Source: Acidovorax benzenivorans
Lineage (GTDB): Bacteria; Pseudomonadota; Gammaproteobacteria; Burkholderiales; Burkholderiaceae_C
Reading direction: 5' to 3'
Length of the DNA: 64,000 bases
NCBI RefSeq assembly: GCF_028680575.1
Contig: NZ_JAPCKI010000016.1
Span: forward strand, 1-64,000
The notes below the pieces were generated by a model. The model was not told the origin of the DNA. It saw nothing but the letters and a program-made list of their open reading frames with translations, and did no database searches. Each line of letters begins with the position of its first letter. Within the stretch, counting starts at the first letter, position 1. This document shows positions 2,165 to 46,199 of this stretch, one piece after another. Position numbers and translations under genes: made by a program.

Positions 2165-3055
2165 ATGCCTGCGCCACGCCCCATTTTGCGGGTTGCGTCT
2201 GATTTGCCCACCTCCGTGCCTGGGGTGTGGCATGCCGACGCGCTGGGTGCAGGCACACAGCGCGTGCTGCCAACGGGCCATGCCGCGCTGGACGCGCAGC
2301 TGCCGGGTGGCGGCTGGCCCGTGGGGGCCTTGAGCGAGGTGCTGCAGCCCTTGGCGGGTTTGCACGAATGGCAACTGGTGCTGCCCGCACTGGTGCAGGC
2401 CACGGCCAGGCAGAAGGGAGCGGTGGTACTGGTGGCGCCGCCGTGCGAGCCTTTTGGCCCGGCCCTGCAGTCGCAGGGTTTGCGGGCAGAGCGCGTGTGC
2501 GTGGTGCGGGCCGACTCTGCCATGGCGGCCTTGTGGGCGGCAGAGCAGGCGCTGCGCTGCCAGGGCGTGCTGGCCGTTATGGCCTGGCTGCCCCAAGCGC
2601 GGCCTGCCGCCCTGCGGCGGTTGCAATTGGCGGCGGCCCAGCAACAGCAATTGTTGTGGGTGTTTCGTTCGGTCGATGCCGCATGGCCAGCGTCGCAGGT
2701 GTCTCAGGCGTCGCCAGCCCTATTGCGGCTGCAGGTACAGGGGCTGACCCTGCCAGGGGATGCCGCGGCGGCCCCTGGCATACAGGTGCAGATCCTCAAG
2801 CGCCGGGGGCCTCCGCTGGCGCAGGCGATCCATCTGCCGGGCTGCCACCCCCAGCTGGCGCAGGTGCTGGTGGCACAGGCCGATCGGCGGCGCGCAGCAC
2901 AAGAGGCGGCCAGTGCCCTGGTAGCGGGCCGCCAGGCTGCTGCGATGCGGGTGGCCGGGGCCTCCGGGGCCGTGCGGGCACGCAATGCGCCGGGGGGCAG
3001 ACCAGAAGGGAGCAGGCATGCACTGGATCGCTCTGCCATTGCCTTGGTGCGATGA
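2165..3055 (+). CDS. imuA: ImuA, RecA-like accessory protein of the SOS mutasome
   Basis: 296 residues. The start of the conserved region (ALDAQLPGGGWPVGALSEVL) is typical of proteobacterial ImuA/SulA-type proteins, which resemble RecA but have a degenerate nucleotide-binding loop. ImuA works with ImuB and DnaE2 in error-prone translesion synthesis after DNA damage. The gene follows a LexA box and its 3' end overlaps imuB by 38 bases, so the two are probably translationally coupled. The C-terminus is Ala/Arg-rich and low in complexity, which is common in this family. Assignment rests on the N-terminal motif and the invariant gene order imuA-imuB-dnaE2. Confidence 0.88.
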   Translation: MPAPRPILRVASDLPTSVPGVWHADALGAGTQRVLPTGHAALDAQLPGGGWPVGALSEVLQPLAGLHEWQLVLPALVQATARQKGAVVLVAPPCEPFGPALQSQGLRAERVCVVRADSAMAALWAAEQALRCQGVLAVMAWLPQARPAALRRLQLAAAQQQQLLWVFRSVDAAWPASQVSQASPALLRLQVQGLTLPGDAAAAPGIQVQILKRRGPPLAQAIHLPGCHPQLAQVLVAQADRRRAAQEAASALVAGRQAAAMRVAGASGAVRARNAPGGRPEGSRHALDRSAIALVR

Positions 3056-4610
3056 GGCCGCCGCCTCGGCGGGTACAGGCACGGAGAGAAGTACCGACGC
3101 GCTGAACGCCGCCGCAGGCTGGTGGGCCTTGCGTTTTACGCCGCGTGTGGCGCTGGCCGATGGCGAGGCGGTGTTGCTGGAGGTGTCCACCACTGAACGC
3201 CTGTGGGGCGGGCGCGAGGCGCTGCAGGCGCTGGTGCTGCAAGCCTGGGCCGACGCATCGGCCAGAGGTGTGGGGGATAGCGTTGCCAACCAACCCATCA
3301 ACAATCCTGAAAAGCCTGTCAATCCCTGTGGATCGGCCACGGCCAAGGCTCTGTCGCCTGGGGCCCCGGCAGTGTGGGGCACGGGCCCCACGGCCCTGGT
3401 GGCCCAGGCCTGGCTGCGCATGGCGCTGGCAGGGCACCCCTGCCCACCGCAGGGCAGGGTAGAGAACCTGCCTTTGCACACGCTGGCGGCGCTGCGTCCG
3501 CATGTAGCCAGCCTGGAGCGCATGGGTTGCCGCACCTGGGGCACGCTGCGGGCGCTGCCGCGTGCGGGTGTGGCGCGGCGCTTGGGGGCCGGTGTGTTGC
3601 GGGTGCTGGACCAGGCCTTGGGCCATGCCCCCGAGGCCCATGCCTGGCTGCAACTGCCCGAGCAGTTTGTGTTGACCACCGAGCTGCCCGCACTGGCCGA
3701 GTCGGCCGACGCACTGCTGTGGAGCGCCAGCCGCTGCCTCACGGCCCTGCAAGCCTGGCTGCAGGCGCGCCAGCAGGGCGTGCTGGCGCTGGAGCTGGCC
3801 TGGCGCCACGACTTGCGGCGCATGGATGGCGTGGTGTTGCCCCCCACCCAGGCGCTGCAGGTGCGCACCGCCCAGGCCACCCACGACTTGGCGCACCTGC
3901 GGCGCTTGCTGGCCGAAAACCTGGCGCGCACCACGCTGGCAGCGCCGGTCAACCAGATCACGCTGCGGCTGCTTGACGCGGCTCCGCTGCCGCACCGCAG
4001 TGCCAGCCTGCTGCCCCCGGGGGATGTGGGGGGGCGTGACCTCGCAAGCCATGGCAGCGCCGATCCGGCAGATGCCCCAGGCGAGGCCCTGCACCAATTG
4101 CTGGAGCGCCTGTCGGCCCGCTTGGGCGCCGACCATGTGGTGGCCCCGGTGCTACTGGCCGACCACCGGCCCGAACGCATGCAGCAATGGCGCGCGGCTG
4201 CTGAAGTGCTGGGCGCGCCCTCGACTGCCACGCGTACACCCGCCAGTTCTGCGTCTGTGCGTGCGGACGATGCTTCGCAGGGCATCGCCCCGGATGCCCC
4301 CTTGTTGCCCACCTGGCTGCTGAACCCGCCGCCGCGGCTGGTTGTGCAGGGCAACCGCCCCTGCCACCACGGCCTGCTGCGCCTGCTGGCTGGGCCCCAT
4401 CGGTTTGAGGCGGGCTGGTGGTCTGCCACCGACGACGCCGTGGACCCGGCACACCCCTGCGCGGGCCTGGCCTTGCGCGACTACTTTGTGGCCCACAACG
4501 ACGTGGTGGGGCTGGTGTGGGTGTTTCGCGAGCGACTGGCGCCTGCGCTGGATGGCACGCAGGCGCCAGCGCGCCCCCACCGCTGGTTTCTGCACGGAAT
4601 CTTTGGGTGA
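3018..4610 (+). CDS. imuB: ImuB, Y-family polymerase-like mutasome scaffold
   Basis: 530 residues from the ATG at 3018, chosen because an AAGGGAG ribosome site precedes it and the product then begins MHWIALPLPW, as in homologues; an earlier in-frame start would add 11 residues. ImuB resembles Y-family polymerases but lacks the catalytic acidic residues, and links ImuA, the beta clamp and DnaE2. The C-terminal signature is present: GPHRFEAGWW, RDYFV, a VWVFRE stretch and the ending WFLHGIFG. The 5' end overlaps imuA, and dnaE2 begins 19 bases after the stop, so all three are probably one SOS-induced operon. Confidence 0.9.
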   Translation: MHWIALPLPWCDEAAASAGTGTERSTDALNAAAGWWALRFTPRVALADGEAVLLEVSTTERLWGGREALQALVLQAWADASARGVGDSVANQPINNPEKPVNPCGSATAKALSPGAPAVWGTGPTALVAQAWLRMALAGHPCPPQGRVENLPLHTLAALRPHVASLERMGCRTWGTLRALPRAGVARRLGAGVLRVLDQALGHAPEAHAWLQLPEQFVLTTELPALAESADALLWSASRCLTALQAWLQARQQGVLALELAWRHDLRRMDGVVLPPTQALQVRTAQATHDLAHLRRLLAENLARTTLAAPVNQITLRLLDAAPLPHRSASLLPPGDVGGRDLASHGSADPADAPGEALHQLLERLSARLGADHVVAPVLLADHRPERMQQWRAAAEVLGAPSTATRTPASSASVRADDASQGIAPDAPLLPTWLLNPPPRLVVQGNRPCHHGLLRLLAGPHRFEAGWWSATDDAVDPAHPCAGLALRDYFVAHNDVVGLVWVFRERLAPALDGTQAPARPHRWFLHGIFG

Positions 4611-4629: not shown

Positions 4630-7600
4630 ATGGGCTTGACGCATCTACCCCCTCCACAGGCCGCTGCGGTGCCAGACCCCGCAGCGGGTGCCGCCGAGCT
4701 GCCGGGCTATGCCGAGCTGCATTGTCTGTCCAACTTCAGCTTTCAGCGGGGCGCATCGCACCCGAAAGAGCTGGTGGCGCGCGCAGCCAAGCTGGGCTAC
4801 CAGGCGCTGGCGCTGACGGACGAATGCTCGGTGGCCGGGGTGGTGCGTGCCTGGGGGGCTGCCAAGGAATGGGGCCTGCACCTCATCGTGGGCAGCGAGT
4901 TTTTGTGGGGCGACCTGCGGCTGGTGGCGCTGGCGCGCGATGCAAAGGGCTGGGGCAACCTGTGCGAGTTCATCACCGCCGCCCGCGCCGCCGCGCCCAA
5001 GGGGCATTACCACGTGGGTACGGGCAGCCCCTGGCATTTGCTGCAGGGGTGCGAGCTGCTGCTGGCGCCATGTCGCCAGCACTTTGATGCTTCTGATTTT
5101 GTAGCTTTCAGCGCTTGTATAACGAGCGCTAGAGGCCAATTTGGCTCAAACTTTGATGCCCATCTGTGGTTGGCGGTAGAGCTGCACATGGCCCCTGACG
5201 ACAGCCTGTGGCTGGCTACGCTGCAGCGCGTGGGCGCCGCGCTCAACCTGCCGCTGGTAGCTGCGGGCGATGTGCACATGCACGCCCGCTCGCGCAAGCC
5301 GCTGCAGGACGTGATCACGGCCGTGAAGCGGGGCTGCTCCGTGGCCGAGTGCGGCTTTGCGCTGCAGCCCAATGCCGAGCGCCACCTGCGCCAGCGCGTG
5401 CGGCTGGCGGGCATTTACCCGCCCCACCTGCTCGCGGCCACGCTCACCGTGGCTGGGCGCTGCACCTTCAGCCTGAGTGAGATCCAGTACCAGTACCCGC
5501 TGGAGACCGTGCCCCAGGGCATGACGCCGACCCAGGGTCTGGCCTGGCTGGTCGATGCCAACACGGCTGGCCTGTACCCCGACGGCGTGCCCGACGCGAT
5601 CGCCGCGCAGATCCGCAAAGAGCTGGACTTGATCGCGCACTGCCGGTACGAGATGTACTTCCTGACCGTGTACGACATCGTGCGGTTTGCGCGCAGCGTG
5701 GGCATCCTGTGCCAGGGGCGCGGCTCGGCGGCCAACTCGGTGGTCTGCTACGTGCTGGGTATCACGGCGGTGGACCCCAAGGACTCCCATCTGCTGTTCG
5801 AGCGCTTCATCAGCAAGGAGCGCAGCGAGCCGCCCGACATCGACGTGGACTTTGAGCACGACCGGCGCGAAGAGGTCATCCAGTACATCTACGACAAATA
5901 CGGCCGCGACCGCGCCGCCATCGCGGCCGTGGTCACCTGCTACCGCACGCGCAGCGCCCTGCGCGACGTGGGCAAGGCCCTGGGCGTGGCGCCCGCGCTG
6001 GTCGATGCATTTGCCAAAGACCACCACTGGTTTGACGAGACCTTCGCCACCGACCGCCTGCAAGAGCTGGCGCAAAGCCTGGGCACGCCCTTGCACCGGC
6101 ACACCGCCCGGCTGTGGATGGAGCTGGCCGCCGACCTGAAAGACTTTCCGCGCCACCTGAGCCAGCATGTGGGCGGCTTCGTGCTCACCCAGGGCAAGCT
6201 CACGCGGCTGGTGCCGGTGGAGCCCGCCAGCATGGAGCACCGCTCCGTCATCCAGTGGGACAAGGACGACCTCGATGAGATGAACCTGCTCAAGGTCGAT
6301 GTGCTGGCGCTGGGCATGCTCAGCGCACTGCGCCGCTGCCTCAACCTGCGTGCAGCCCTGCGCGGTGAGCGCTGGGGCCTGAAAGAGATCCCAAGCGACG
6401 ACCCCGCCACCTACGACATGATCTGCGCTGCCGACACCGTGGGCGTGTTCCAGATCGAAAGCCGCGCCCAGATGAGCATGCTGCCCCGCCTGCAGCCGCG
6501 CCAGTTCTACGACCTGGTGGTCGAGGTCGCCATCGTGCGGCCCGGGCCCATCCAGGGCGGCATGGTGCACCCGTACCTGCAGGCGCGCGAGCGCCGACGC
6601 CAGGGCCTGCCCCTGGAGCTGGAGAAGCCCGAGCTGGAAGACGCGCTGGCGCGCACGCTGGGTATCCCCATCTTTCAGGAACAGGTGATGCAGATCGCCA
6701 TGATCGCGGCGGACTTCACGCCCGGCATGGCCGACGACCTGCGCCGCTCCATGGCCGCCTGGAAGCGCAAGGGCGGCGTGCACCGCTTTGAAGAGCCTCT
6801 CAAGCAAGGCATGAAAGACCGGGGCTACCCGGCCGAATTTGCCGACCGCATCTTCCAGCAGATGTTGGGCTTTGGCGAATACGGTTTTCCCGAAAGCCAC
6901 GCCCACAGCTTTGCGTTGCTGGCCTATGCCAGCAGCTGGCTCAAATGCCACGAGCCCGCATGCTTTTTGGCAGCGCTGCTCAACTCGTTGCCCATGGGTT
7001 TTTACAGCGCCTCGCAACTGGTGCAAGACGCCCGCCGCCACGGCGTGCGCGTGTTGCCCATCGACGTGACTGTGAGCGATATCGACTGCACGCTGGAGGG
7101 CGACCCCGAGCCACTGCGCCCCGCGCGCGGCCTGGGCGCACCGCCGCTGCCCCAGCCCGCCGTGCGCCTGGGCCTGCGGCTGGTGGGCAGTCTGCAGCGC
7201 GAGGCTGCCAAGCGCCTGCTGCAAGCCCGCGCCACAGGCCCAGCCTTTGCCAGCACCGAAGACCTGGCCCTGCGTGCGCAACTGAGCCAGCAAGACCTGC
7301 AGGCCCTGGCCGCCGCCGACGCCCTGGCCAGCCTGTCGGGCCACCGCCGCCAGCAGATGTGGGACGCCGCCGCCCAGCACAACGCGCCGCCCCTGTGGCG
7401 CGACGTGCCCGTGCACGAGGCACCGCTGCAACTGCCCGAGGCCCCCGAGGGTGAAGAAATTTTGTTCGACTACGCCGCCACCGGCCTCACCCTGCGCCGC
7501 CACCCATTGGCCCTGCTGCGCCCCCGCCTGGCCCGCTGGCGCCTGCAAACCGCGCTGCAACTGCACAGCGCCGCCCACGGCCGCAAGGTGCGCGCCTGCG

Positions 7601-7893
7601 GCATCGTCACCGTGCGCCAGCGCCCCGGCACGGCCAAGGGCACCATGTTTGTCACGCTGGAGGACGAAACCGGCCCCGTCAACGTCATCGTCTGGCCCGC
7701 CATGGTCGATGTGTGGCGCAATGCGCTGCTGCGGTCACAGCTGCTGGCGGTGGAAGGCGTGTGGCAATGCAGTGCCGGCCCACCCGGTGGCAATGCCGTG
7801 GTGCGCCACCTGGTGGCCCAGCGTTTCAAGGACCTGACACCACTGCTGGGCCGCATGGGGCAGGCGCTGCAGGGGAGCCGGGATTTTCATTGA
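4630..7893 (+). CDS. dnaE2: DnaE2 (ImuC), error-prone DNA polymerase III alpha-type subunit
   Basis: 1087 residues from the ATG at 4630; a TTG two codons earlier is also possible. Order of domains: PHP domain (from AELHCLSNFSFQRGASHP), C-family palm with catalytic aspartates in PPDIDVDF (D403, D405) and KVDVLALG (D557), helix-hairpin-helix region, and a C-terminal OB fold. It carries out error-prone translesion synthesis with ImuA and ImuB. An oddity: residues about 153-175 (DASDFVAFSACITSARG and following) come from a 69-bp segment containing the window's 39-bp repeat. This segment is absent from the expected family sequence, and HF|DAHLWLAVEL joins smoothly without it. The frame is kept, so the enzyme is probably functional. 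Confidence 0.93.
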   Translation: MGLTHLPPPQAAAVPDPAAGAAELPGYAELHCLSNFSFQRGASHPKELVARAAKLGYQALALTDECSVAGVVRAWGAAKEWGLHLIVGSEFLWGDLRLVALARDAKGWGNLCEFITAARAAAPKGHYHVGTGSPWHLLQGCELLLAPCRQHFDASDFVAFSACITSARGQFGSNFDAHLWLAVELHMAPDDSLWLATLQRVGAALNLPLVAAGDVHMHARSRKPLQDVITAVKRGCSVAECGFALQPNAERHLRQRVRLAGIYPPHLLAATLTVAGRCTFSLSEIQYQYPLETVPQGMTPTQGLAWLVDANTAGLYPDGVPDAIAAQIRKELDLIAHCRYEMYFLTVYDIVRFARSVGILCQGRGSAANSVVCYVLGITAVDPKDSHLLFERFISKERSEPPDIDVDFEHDRREEVIQYIYDKYGRDRAAIAAVVTCYRTRSALRDVGKALGVAPALVDAFAKDHHWFDETFATDRLQELAQSLGTPLHRHTARLWMELAADLKDFPRHLSQHVGGFVLTQGKLTRLVPVEPASMEHRSVIQWDKDDLDEMNLLKVDVLALGMLSALRRCLNLRAALRGERWGLKEIPSDDPATYDMICAADTVGVFQIESRAQMSMLPRLQPRQFYDLVVEVAIVRPGPIQGGMVHPYLQARERRRQGLPLELEKPELEDALARTLGIPIFQEQVMQIAMIAADFTPGMADDLRRSMAAWKRKGGVHRFEEPLKQGMKDRGYPAEFADRIFQQMLGFGEYGFPESHAHSFALLAYASSWLKCHEPACFLAALLNSLPMGFYSASQLVQDARRHGVRVLPIDVTVSDIDCTLEGDPEPLRPARGLGAPPLPQPAVRLGLRLVGSLQREAAKRLLQARATGPAFASTEDLALRAQLSQQDLQALAAADALASLSGHRRQQMWDAAAQHNAPPLWRDVPVHEAPLQLPEAPEGEEILFDYAATGLTLRRHPLALLRPRLARWRLQTALQLHSAAHGRKVRACGIVTVRQRPGTAKGTMFVTLEDETGPVNVIVWPAMVDVWRNALLRSQLLAVEGVWQCSAGPPGGNAVVRHLVAQRFKDLTPLLGRMGQALQGSRDFH
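5101..5139 (+). repeat. 39-bp interspersed repeat, copy inside dnaE2
   Basis: Starts GTAGCTTTCAGCGCTTG and ends AACGAGCGCTAGAGGCCAA, the same 39-base length and ends as the intergenic copies. It is flanked by two exact copies of ACTTTGATGC at 5081-5090 and 5150-5159, offset by 69 bases (23 codons), as an in-frame insertion with target duplication would leave. It is translated as part of the PHP region of DnaE2. Confidence 0.85.
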
Positions 7894-12242: not shown

Positions 12243-12281
12243 ATAGCTGCTGGCGCATATTCTACTTGCGCTAGAGGCCAA
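12243..12281 (+). repeat. 39-bp interspersed repeat
   Basis: Starts ATAGCTGCTGGCGC and ends GCGCTAGAGGCCAA. It lies between the divergent mltB-like gene and sbcB, just upstream of the latter. One of about eight copies in the window. Confidence 0.8.
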
Positions 12282-32374: not shown

Positions 32375-32481
32375 GCACCCGCCTCAGTATTGTTTACTTC
32401 ATTTTTAATAGCTGCTTGCGCTTGCTGAATAAGCGCTAGAGGCCAATTCGGCTTGAAATTTTGGTGCACGCGCTTGTTCAT
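32371..32481 (-). CDS. Possible repeat-derived small ORF linking two permease genes
   Basis: 36 codons from the ATG at 32481, eight bases after the stop of the upstream permease and with GAGGA four bases before the start. The stop overlaps the next permease ATG in an ATGA junction. The central part, including KPNWPLALIQQAQAAIKNE, is the antisense translation of the 39-bp repeat. The spacing is what a translated coupling ORF would show, but the repeat may simply have landed in an intergenic gap. No homologous protein family is recognised. Confidence 0.4.
   Translation of the reverse strand: MNKRVHQNFKPNWPLALIQQAQAAIKNEVNNTEAGA
32408..32446 (+). repeat. 39-bp interspersed repeat inside the permease operon
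   Basis: Starts ATAGCTGCTTGCGCTTG and ends AATAAGCGCTAGAGGCCAA; this is the copy closest to the consensus. It lies between the two leftward permease genes, where a hairpin could influence relative expression of the two subunits. Confidence 0.85.
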
Positions 32482-32488
32482 GGCGTCC

Positions 32489-40329: not shown

Positions 40330-40368
40330 TTGGCTGCTAGCGCTTATCTGATAAGCGCTAGCAGCTAT
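40330..40368 (-). repeat. 39-bp interspersed repeat, perfect-palindrome copy
   Basis: In minus orientation the copy starts ATAGCTGCTAGCGC and ends in GCCAA. It contains a flawless inverted repeat: GCTGCTAGCGCTTATC (40333-40348), one base, then GATAAGCGCTAGCAGC (40350-40365). It lies after the stop of the GRDP-like gene and before the isomerase gene, both leftward, and could act as a strong RNA hairpin. Confidence 0.85.
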
Positions 40369-46160: not shown

Positions 46161-46199
46161 ATAGCTGCCAGCGCTTTTCACATGAGCGCAAGAGGCCAA
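46161..46199 (+). repeat. 39-bp interspersed repeat in the hemF-rsfS gap
   Basis: Starts ATAGCTGCCAGCGC and ends GAGCGCAAGAGGCCAA. It lies where nadD would be expected, 33 bases after the hemF stop. Confidence 0.8.

Follow-up and report, generated by a model that had tools for sequence, protein, structure and literature searches.

Copies of a dispersed Comamonadaceae repeat lie in frame in dnaE2 and in other unrelated genes, where they have probably become protein sequence

REP/RAYT and MITE elements are short, palindromic, non-autonomous repeats that occur in many copies, and DNA uptake sequences are motifs that are kept at the DNA level inside genes, on both strands. In the Rickettsia palindromic elements (RPE), as described in passages of a review (PMC10969869), a dispersed repeat of about 150 bp is found also in frame in many unrelated genes, where it adds a peptide; the same passages call such in-frame use of a dispersed palindromic repeat unusually frequent in Rickettsia, and consider something similar in other prokaryotes conceivable. 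Excerpts from the description of the Beta-proteobacterial repeat element (BRE; PMC3110155) give it a length of about 90 bp and an average of 69% GC in Bordetella, with a partly tandem arrangement, and report one copy in one Acidovorax genome and four in another.

The repeat examined here lies, among other places, in the dnaE2 gene of Acidovorax benzenivorans, in a window of 64,000 nucleotides (the whole stretch of DNA that was analysed; contig NZ_JAPCKI010000016.1, positions 1 to 64,000). Judged by analogy, it is an element that works like RPE as a kind, the likeness being one of behaviour. As with RPE, the same repeat is found between genes and in frame in unrelated genes (20 copies in 19 genes), and there are insert-free homologues (FdsA of genome G020, the patatin-like proteins of G013 and G044, and E. 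coli MoeA), although not as a net gain in cobC and aroE. It differs from the longer RPE in measuring only about 70 bp, in its GC-rich Comamonadaceae host, and in being read in at least five frames. BRE is likewise a dispersed betaproteobacterial repeat, found in Comamonadaceae among others and with some copies wholly within coding sequences, but it is GC-rich and longer, whereas the present element has AT-rich arms and 203 core matches in its genome; BRE was judged to be a different element, the two being set apart by BRE's description only (excerpts of PMC3110155). With REP/RAYT and MITE elements the repeat shares its shortness, its palindromic character, its many copies and a non-autonomous nature, but neither a target duplication (63 copies) nor a covarying stem was seen. 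One Y1_Tnp (RAYT-like) gene was found in the genome (G000 C4:122044-122331, locus L298), with no element copy in its 3.3-kb locus; RAYT was set aside as the mover, no link to the element being seen at this sole Y1_Tnp locus found. Like DNA uptake sequences, the element is a motif kept as DNA within genes in both orientations; unlike them, several of its copies lengthen the protein. The searched literature on repeats of Acidovorax and Comamonadaceae yielded no account of the element, which is not proof of novelty, since that search covered subscription papers thinly.

The host gene in the window, dnaE2 (imuC; positions 4630..7893, forward strand), encodes an error-prone DNA polymerase in an ORF of 1087 amino acids; its relatives of solved structure are alpha chains of DNA polymerase III. 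The ORFs at 2165-3055 and 2985-4610, upstream of it, fit what we take to be the usual imuA-imuB-dnaE2 order. The element occupies positions 5084..5157 of the same strand (edges approximate) with its frame open, and encodes approximately residues 152-176 of DnaE2 (FDASDFVAFSACITSARGQFGSNFD); its core at 5110..5137 (forward strand; AGCGCTTG, a spacer and GAGCGCTAGAGGCC) has no mismatch to the core pattern. An earlier note on this DNA had held the repeat inside dnaE2 to be the same element that is seen elsewhere, and this is directly confirmed by a profile built from 29 other copies in the same genome, with the dnaE2 copy excluded, which scores the dnaE2 slot at 54 bits (nhmmer, E 2e-15). It is to be noted that three of the 20 host-gene copies discussed below (those of PurL, MoeA and the FdsB-like gene) belonged to the 29 profile copies. 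The same note correctly described two copies of ACTTTGATGC, at 5081-5090 and 5150-5159 (both on the forward strand), offset by 69 bases, with the repeat between them and the frame kept. Its size of 39 bp for the element was too small, as the consensus of the 29 copies extends over about 70 bp and consists of TTGCTAT, an AT-rich part, GATAGCTGCTAGCGCTT, 7-8 variable bases, AAGCGCTAGAGGCC and AATTTGACTTAAA.

The part of DnaE2 encoded by the element was modeled with AlphaFold2, using residues 21-390 and 50 sequences, so that the numbering of the fragment is shifted by 20. A helix was predicted at DnaE2 residues 157-168 (137-148 of the fragment; positions 5098..5133, forward strand), entirely within the element; mean pLDDT was 88.1 over the fragment, and the block means were 95 over the element helix. 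By prediction, then, the element residues form a helix that belongs to the folded PHP domain.

Across the genome, 147 matches to the core pattern were found at up to 3 mismatches, compared to 3 for the reversed-pattern control; a second, slightly different core pattern gave 203 matches against 1 control match, balanced by strand (107 and 96). Besides the dnaE2 copy, the window contains cores at 12252..12279 (forward strand, 3 mismatches to the core pattern), 40332..40359 (reverse strand, 3 mismatches) and 46170..46197 (forward strand, 2 mismatches), and an intergenic copy whose core matches the pattern at 32417..32444 (forward strand). The core is imperfectly palindromic (AGCGCTT, 7-8 bases, AAGCGCTAGAGGCC), and its arms are AT-rich. 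Among the copies, however, the Watson-Crick counts were close to those under independence at 6 of the 8 stem pairs, with no clear covariation (for pair 6-16, 77 against 71.5 under independence; for pair 8-14, 28 against 40.2), and a hairpin held by compensatory change was therefore rejected as unsupported. Flanking duplication was not systematic at 63 non-coding copies, the best diagonal reaching a z of 3.0 among about 2000 tried, although old copies could have lost it. Rfam at its gathering threshold placed no RNA family over the window, and the 25-residue element peptide had no match in a plasmid collection at E 10.

Forty-one of the 47 genus-group genomes match the N-terminal part of the window's DnaE2 at 69% identity or more, and 37 of these 41 orthologues carry the element at the same slot and in the same frame (at least 12 bits). 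The 37 comprise all of the first 30 loci, the window's own among them, each of which scores at least 14 bits, together with 7 of 11 further orthologues (32 to 59 bits); the other 4 score 0 bits. In the DnaE2 rows the in-frame slot reads like DASDLIAVSACLSSARGQFDSNF, i.e., the repeat in translation. A second type of DnaE2, about 51% identical, showed no element in the 10 rows listed. Since the same slot and frame are occupied in 37 of the 41 orthologous DnaE2 sequences, we conclude that the dnaE2 copy is old. This speaks strongly against the history that the earlier note implies, namely a recent, lineage-specific insertion marked by a 10-bp target duplication, which had drawn on the two exact decamers and on their distance of 69 bases, a multiple of three. 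Among 31 distinct dnaE2 segments that are at least 78% identical, just 1 has the decamer pair in exact form, and in the remaining 30 the two agree at 3 to 8 of 10 positions; the left decamer is made up of native codons that continue into the element's left end and is not a target duplication, and the right one is the right end of the element plus the next codons. Moreover, the proposed gain of 23 residues would, if taken out of the 47-codon slot of the window, leave 24 codons, fewer than the shortest slot (35) of 105 rows. A recent insertion of this kind is thus rejected on the alignment. The alignment of homologues that had been suggested as a check gave a mixed answer, in that a gap of 23 residues is absent from the near relatives, most of which carry repeat-like DNA.

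The length of the dnaE2 slot is 47 codons in 33 of the 37 element-bearing rows and 43 codons in the other 4 (G025, G029, G045 and G046, with element scores of 35 to 59 bits), and it is also 43 codons in all 4 genus rows without the element. Rows with and without the element therefore differ by 0 to 4 codons within the genus, and by 12 when the shortest outgroup rows are considered. A single 12-bp loss as the source of the differing slot spacings was dropped, as loci L392-L395 retain the right end of the element through the Trp codon. By eye, the slot of the nearest relative (L032, genome G033) resembles the window in its left half and G004 and G017 in its right half, as if recombined. In records of Rhodoferax and Polaromonas (L115, L132, L135), extra element-like copies were seen near dnaE2 but outside the slot.

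For a broader view, a dnaE2 tree was built from 105 distinct rows of 116, with the slot omitted, as a quick build on 330 columns. The slot scores at least 12 bits in all 31 rows that are 78% or more identical, and likewise in 13 of the remaining 74, which are Alicycliphilus, Oryzisolibacter, Paracidovorax, a relative labelled Acidovorax, two Comamonas, five Rhodoferax-like or unplaced betaproteobacterial rows, one Variovorax and one Polaromonas. Sixty of the 105 rows, including one named Acidovorax soli, score below 8 bits, and 1 row is unclear; as controls, none of the 105 reversed slots and none of 525 codon-shuffled slots reached 8 bits. The state of the element on this tree needs at least 9 changes, and both a single old gain with many losses and several gains fit it; few gains are favoured because slot, strand and frame are shared. 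Entry into dnaE2 would predate most splits of the Acidovorax group, and probably took place earlier, in Comamonadaceae. One might also suppose that the element originated within a gene, dnaE2 or some other, as part of its coding sequence and spread to the spacers later, and its Phe codon does align, by eye, with a native DnaE2 Phe in outgroup rows. The outgroup slots L169-L174, L137 and L139, however, are not among the rows of at least 5 bits, and such an origin is made very unlikely also by the AT-rich codons of the element within a GC-rich gene and by the many unrelated genes that the same element fits, in five frames.

These genes were identified from 111 distinct copies of at least 20 bits in one genome, out of about 200 core matches. 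A copy was counted as in frame if the element could be read through without a stop and each of its 180-bp flanks scored best in that same frame; the coding calls rely on codon scores for which 30 long ORFs of the window served as the training set. By this measure 22 of the 111 copies are in frame with both flanks coding. When the right flanks were swapped among the 108 copies with flanks long enough for this control, 200 rounds gave on average 5.4 in-frame copies and never more than 12, against 21 of 108 observed, so that about 5 of the 22 could be due to chance on the swap measure alone. Support from homology exists for 20 of the 22 copies, in 19 genes: those for a biotin-dependent carboxylase, FdsA, a NuoE/NuoF-type FdsB-like protein, an FAD-oxidase/iron-sulfur fusion, HrpA, DnaE2, a patatin-like protein, MurU, TrmJ, a PF10023 aminopeptidase, CobC, UvrD, MutL, PurL, EarP (two copies), AroE, HsdR, MoeA and CDP-glucose 4,6-dehydratase. 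In 15 of the 20 copies the element lies within one continuous family match, and the rest are between domains, after one, or in DnaE2. Two copies were left out of the 20: L241, in which the element is upstream of an enoyl-CoA hydratase domain and the left flank is poor, and L250, which belongs to no family and is the sole copy in the sixth frame. Over the 22 copies the three frames on the element's own strand are used 6, 1 and 4 times and those on the other strand 4, 5 and 2 times; removal of the two doubtful copies leaves five frames. With 18 other genes of the genome showing the element, the connection to a mutagenic polymerase that had been drawn for dnaE2 is nothing special. As a raw count, 3 of the 19 host genes act in DNA repair or mutagenesis (MutL, L143; UvrD, L251; and DnaE2). 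Two neighbours in an apparent formate dehydrogenase cluster (L152 and L022; G000 C3:41316 and C3:43020) have in-frame copies 1.7 kb apart and in different frames. In the EarP gene (L258; G000 C38:453088 and 453540) the two in-frame copies are on opposite element strands, and the length of the family match is nearly unchanged.

At other host genes, too, the element is widespread among relatives, and homologues free of it exist. For fdsA, 29 of the best 30 loci score at least 12 bits and the one remaining locus scores 9.4; the frame is in every case the one used in dnaE2; the FdsA of G020, which is outside these 30 loci, has a short linker in place of the element. In the patatin-like gene, 19 of the best 30 loci reach 12 bits, 9 score between 2 and 12, and 2 score 0; the latter value is that of G013 and G044, which have 23 and 26 codons at this place compared to 38-51 in the others.

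Whether the element added length or took the place of existing codons differs between genes. By the spans of family models, the net gain is at least 19 residues in 8 of 14 genes (HrpA, MurU, TrmJ, the aminopeptidase, UvrD, MutL, HsdR and MoeA) and at most 10 residues in the other 6 (the carboxylase, CobC, PurL, EarP, AroE and CDP-glucose dehydratase). In HrpA, TrmJ, UvrD, MutL and HsdR the gain exceeds the length of the element, and other differences must therefore contribute. The cleanest gain is in MoeA, where 31 residues stand opposite 2 in E. coli MoeA; against solved relatives, PurL is longer by 7 residues and AroE by 5. The best 30 loci of cobC are all of one length although their element scores range from 0 to 38 bits (17 of 30 at 12 or above), and the same is true of aroE, with scores of 8 to 44 bits (27 of 30). 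Plain insertion does not predict such equal lengths with and without the element. The constant length in cobC, aroE and the 43-codon dnaE2 slots is explained by trimming after insertion, with overwriting as the rival. In its full form, this rival holds the element to be a non-transposable site that is driven by biased uptake or gene conversion, overwrites native codons, and fades where the family is gone; the motif without length change in cobC and aroE (30 of 30 loci each) and the balance of core matches between the strands are in its favour. The net gains of 19 residues or more, some beyond the length of the element, the MoeA comparison, and the fact that shorter homologues free of the element exist for fdsA, for the patatin gene and for one spacer all argue against it, and we regard it as unlikely. 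A length of about 70 bp is also long for an uptake signal.

The codons of the element set it apart from its surroundings. GC3 within the element is 0.29 in dnaE2, 0.22 in fdsA and 0.35 in the patatin gene, and 0.87, 0.87 and 0.83, respectively, elsewhere in these genes; over the 22 copies, the median is 0.38 in the element and 0.83 and 0.84 in the flanks. Except in the two doubtful copies, the drop is confined to the element and does not extend into the flanks. This is difficult to reconcile with a chance likeness, i.e., with native Ala/Leu/Ser-rich helices that merely resemble the repeat. There are weak cases that would suit such an account, for example an HscA-like gene (L164), which was dropped as an additional host at 6 bits, and in CobC the element reading presumably fits a native motif. 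Nevertheless, with 17 of the 22 in-frame copies scoring 40 to 63 bits and none of the 525 codon-shuffled dnaE2 slots passing the control threshold, we give chance hardly any credence.

Inside genes the element DNA is also slow to change. Flank windows with a synonymous difference as low as that of the element numbered 14 of 297 in dnaE2, 8 of 233 in fdsA and 5 of 338 in the patatin gene, these windows being overlapping and not independent. The cobC codons CTA CAA AGA TGT GAG are nearly invariant, with AGA in 30 of 30 loci, and the six-codon window T-L-Q-R-C-E, picked post hoc, has a synonymous difference of 0.044, compared to at least 0.148 in 92 other windows, a result that would also suit the overwriting of native codons by a driven site. 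The matching seven codons of aroE, likewise picked post hoc, rank 12 of 216. The in-gene element DNA thus remains recognisable since it changes slowly even at synonymous positions; selection acting at the DNA level and homogenisation between the copies are both possible causes.

At least one core match was found in 190 of 299 family genomes sampled, with tens to hundreds in a minority only (up to 443, in G181); the 1-3 matches of many family genomes do not exceed what the control columns show. The four genus-group genomes with an element-free dnaE2 slot (G013, G016, G020 and G044) have 2, 3, 1 and 3 core matches (controls 0, 2, 1 and 1), as against 525 in G025, 441 in G029, 191 in G045, 319 in G046, 86 in G033 and 64 in G004, all with the element in dnaE2. 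Their dnaE2 slots consist of GC-rich codons, and the element is absent also from fdsA in G020, from the patatin gene in G013 and G044, and from the spacer at 32417 in G013, G016 and G044, the three that were read there. Either the family was lost from these four genomes and the slots decayed, or it never arrived; as they are near relatives, a single event may account for all four. A fifth genome, G007, likewise has no more than 2 core matches.

Among 30 genus loci of the 32417 spacer, scored as the best of the whole locus, 25 reach at least 18 bits, 2 are at 7 and 10, and in 3 (L326-L328) the whole spacer is absent and the genes abut without the element. To judge from search rows, the spacer may be empty also in G020, G036 and G037, the last of which has 250 core matches. 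Judged from these sequences, the intergenic copies are old too. In G043 and G029 (L323, L324), the spacer corresponding to 32375-32488 of the window contains another inverted repeat, this one GC-rich (TTCGGGCTGAGC.TGT.GAAGCC ... CTTCGACAA.GCTC), next to the end of the same gene; it might be BRE or another family.

Overall, we consider it likely that an old repeat family of Comamonadaceae, with a unit of about 70 bp, spread mostly into spacers and sometimes into genes, where it was made into protein. The family would have spread by copying to new sites, probably in trans, like a MITE or REP-type element. Copies in genes would have survived where a frame had no stops, or could lose those it had, and where the protein tolerated the residues, presumably with no harm to the enzyme, and in some genes extra native residues would have been trimmed later; in DnaE2, the residues encoded by the element now make up the predicted PHP-domain helix. 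The idea of the earlier note, that a mobile intergenic element was turned into protein sequence in dnaE2, is thereby partly supported: a mostly intergenic repeat is indeed in a coding position with the frame kept, so that the general idea was right, but the recent, duplication-marked history was wrong.

A more tentative possibility, to which we give clearly less weight, is that the element serves the cell as a site on the DNA, being bound or copied there, and is selected as DNA inside genes; proteins would then follow the motif, and their codons would revert to GC-rich ones, at unchanged length, once the family is gone. The near-absence of the family from the four genomes with element-free dnaE2 slots, although it may count as a single event, raised our estimate of this possibility slightly, and also that of the driven, overwriting site, by a smaller step. 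If true, proteins as different as a DNA polymerase, MutL, UvrD and shikimate dehydrogenase would, throughout a group of bacteria, be shaped by a DNA motif in whichever frame it happens to be read.

For the Comamonadaceae, the family that would have spread and been made into protein provides, in a GC-rich betaproteobacterial group, some 20 in-frame cases in one genome, in at least five frames and with insert-free homologues, and the AT-rich codons within GC-rich genes serve as a marker that eases the detection of old cases. It thus opens the questions of how frequent repeat-derived parts of proteins are, and whether the sequence of a protein can be imposed by a motif in the DNA.
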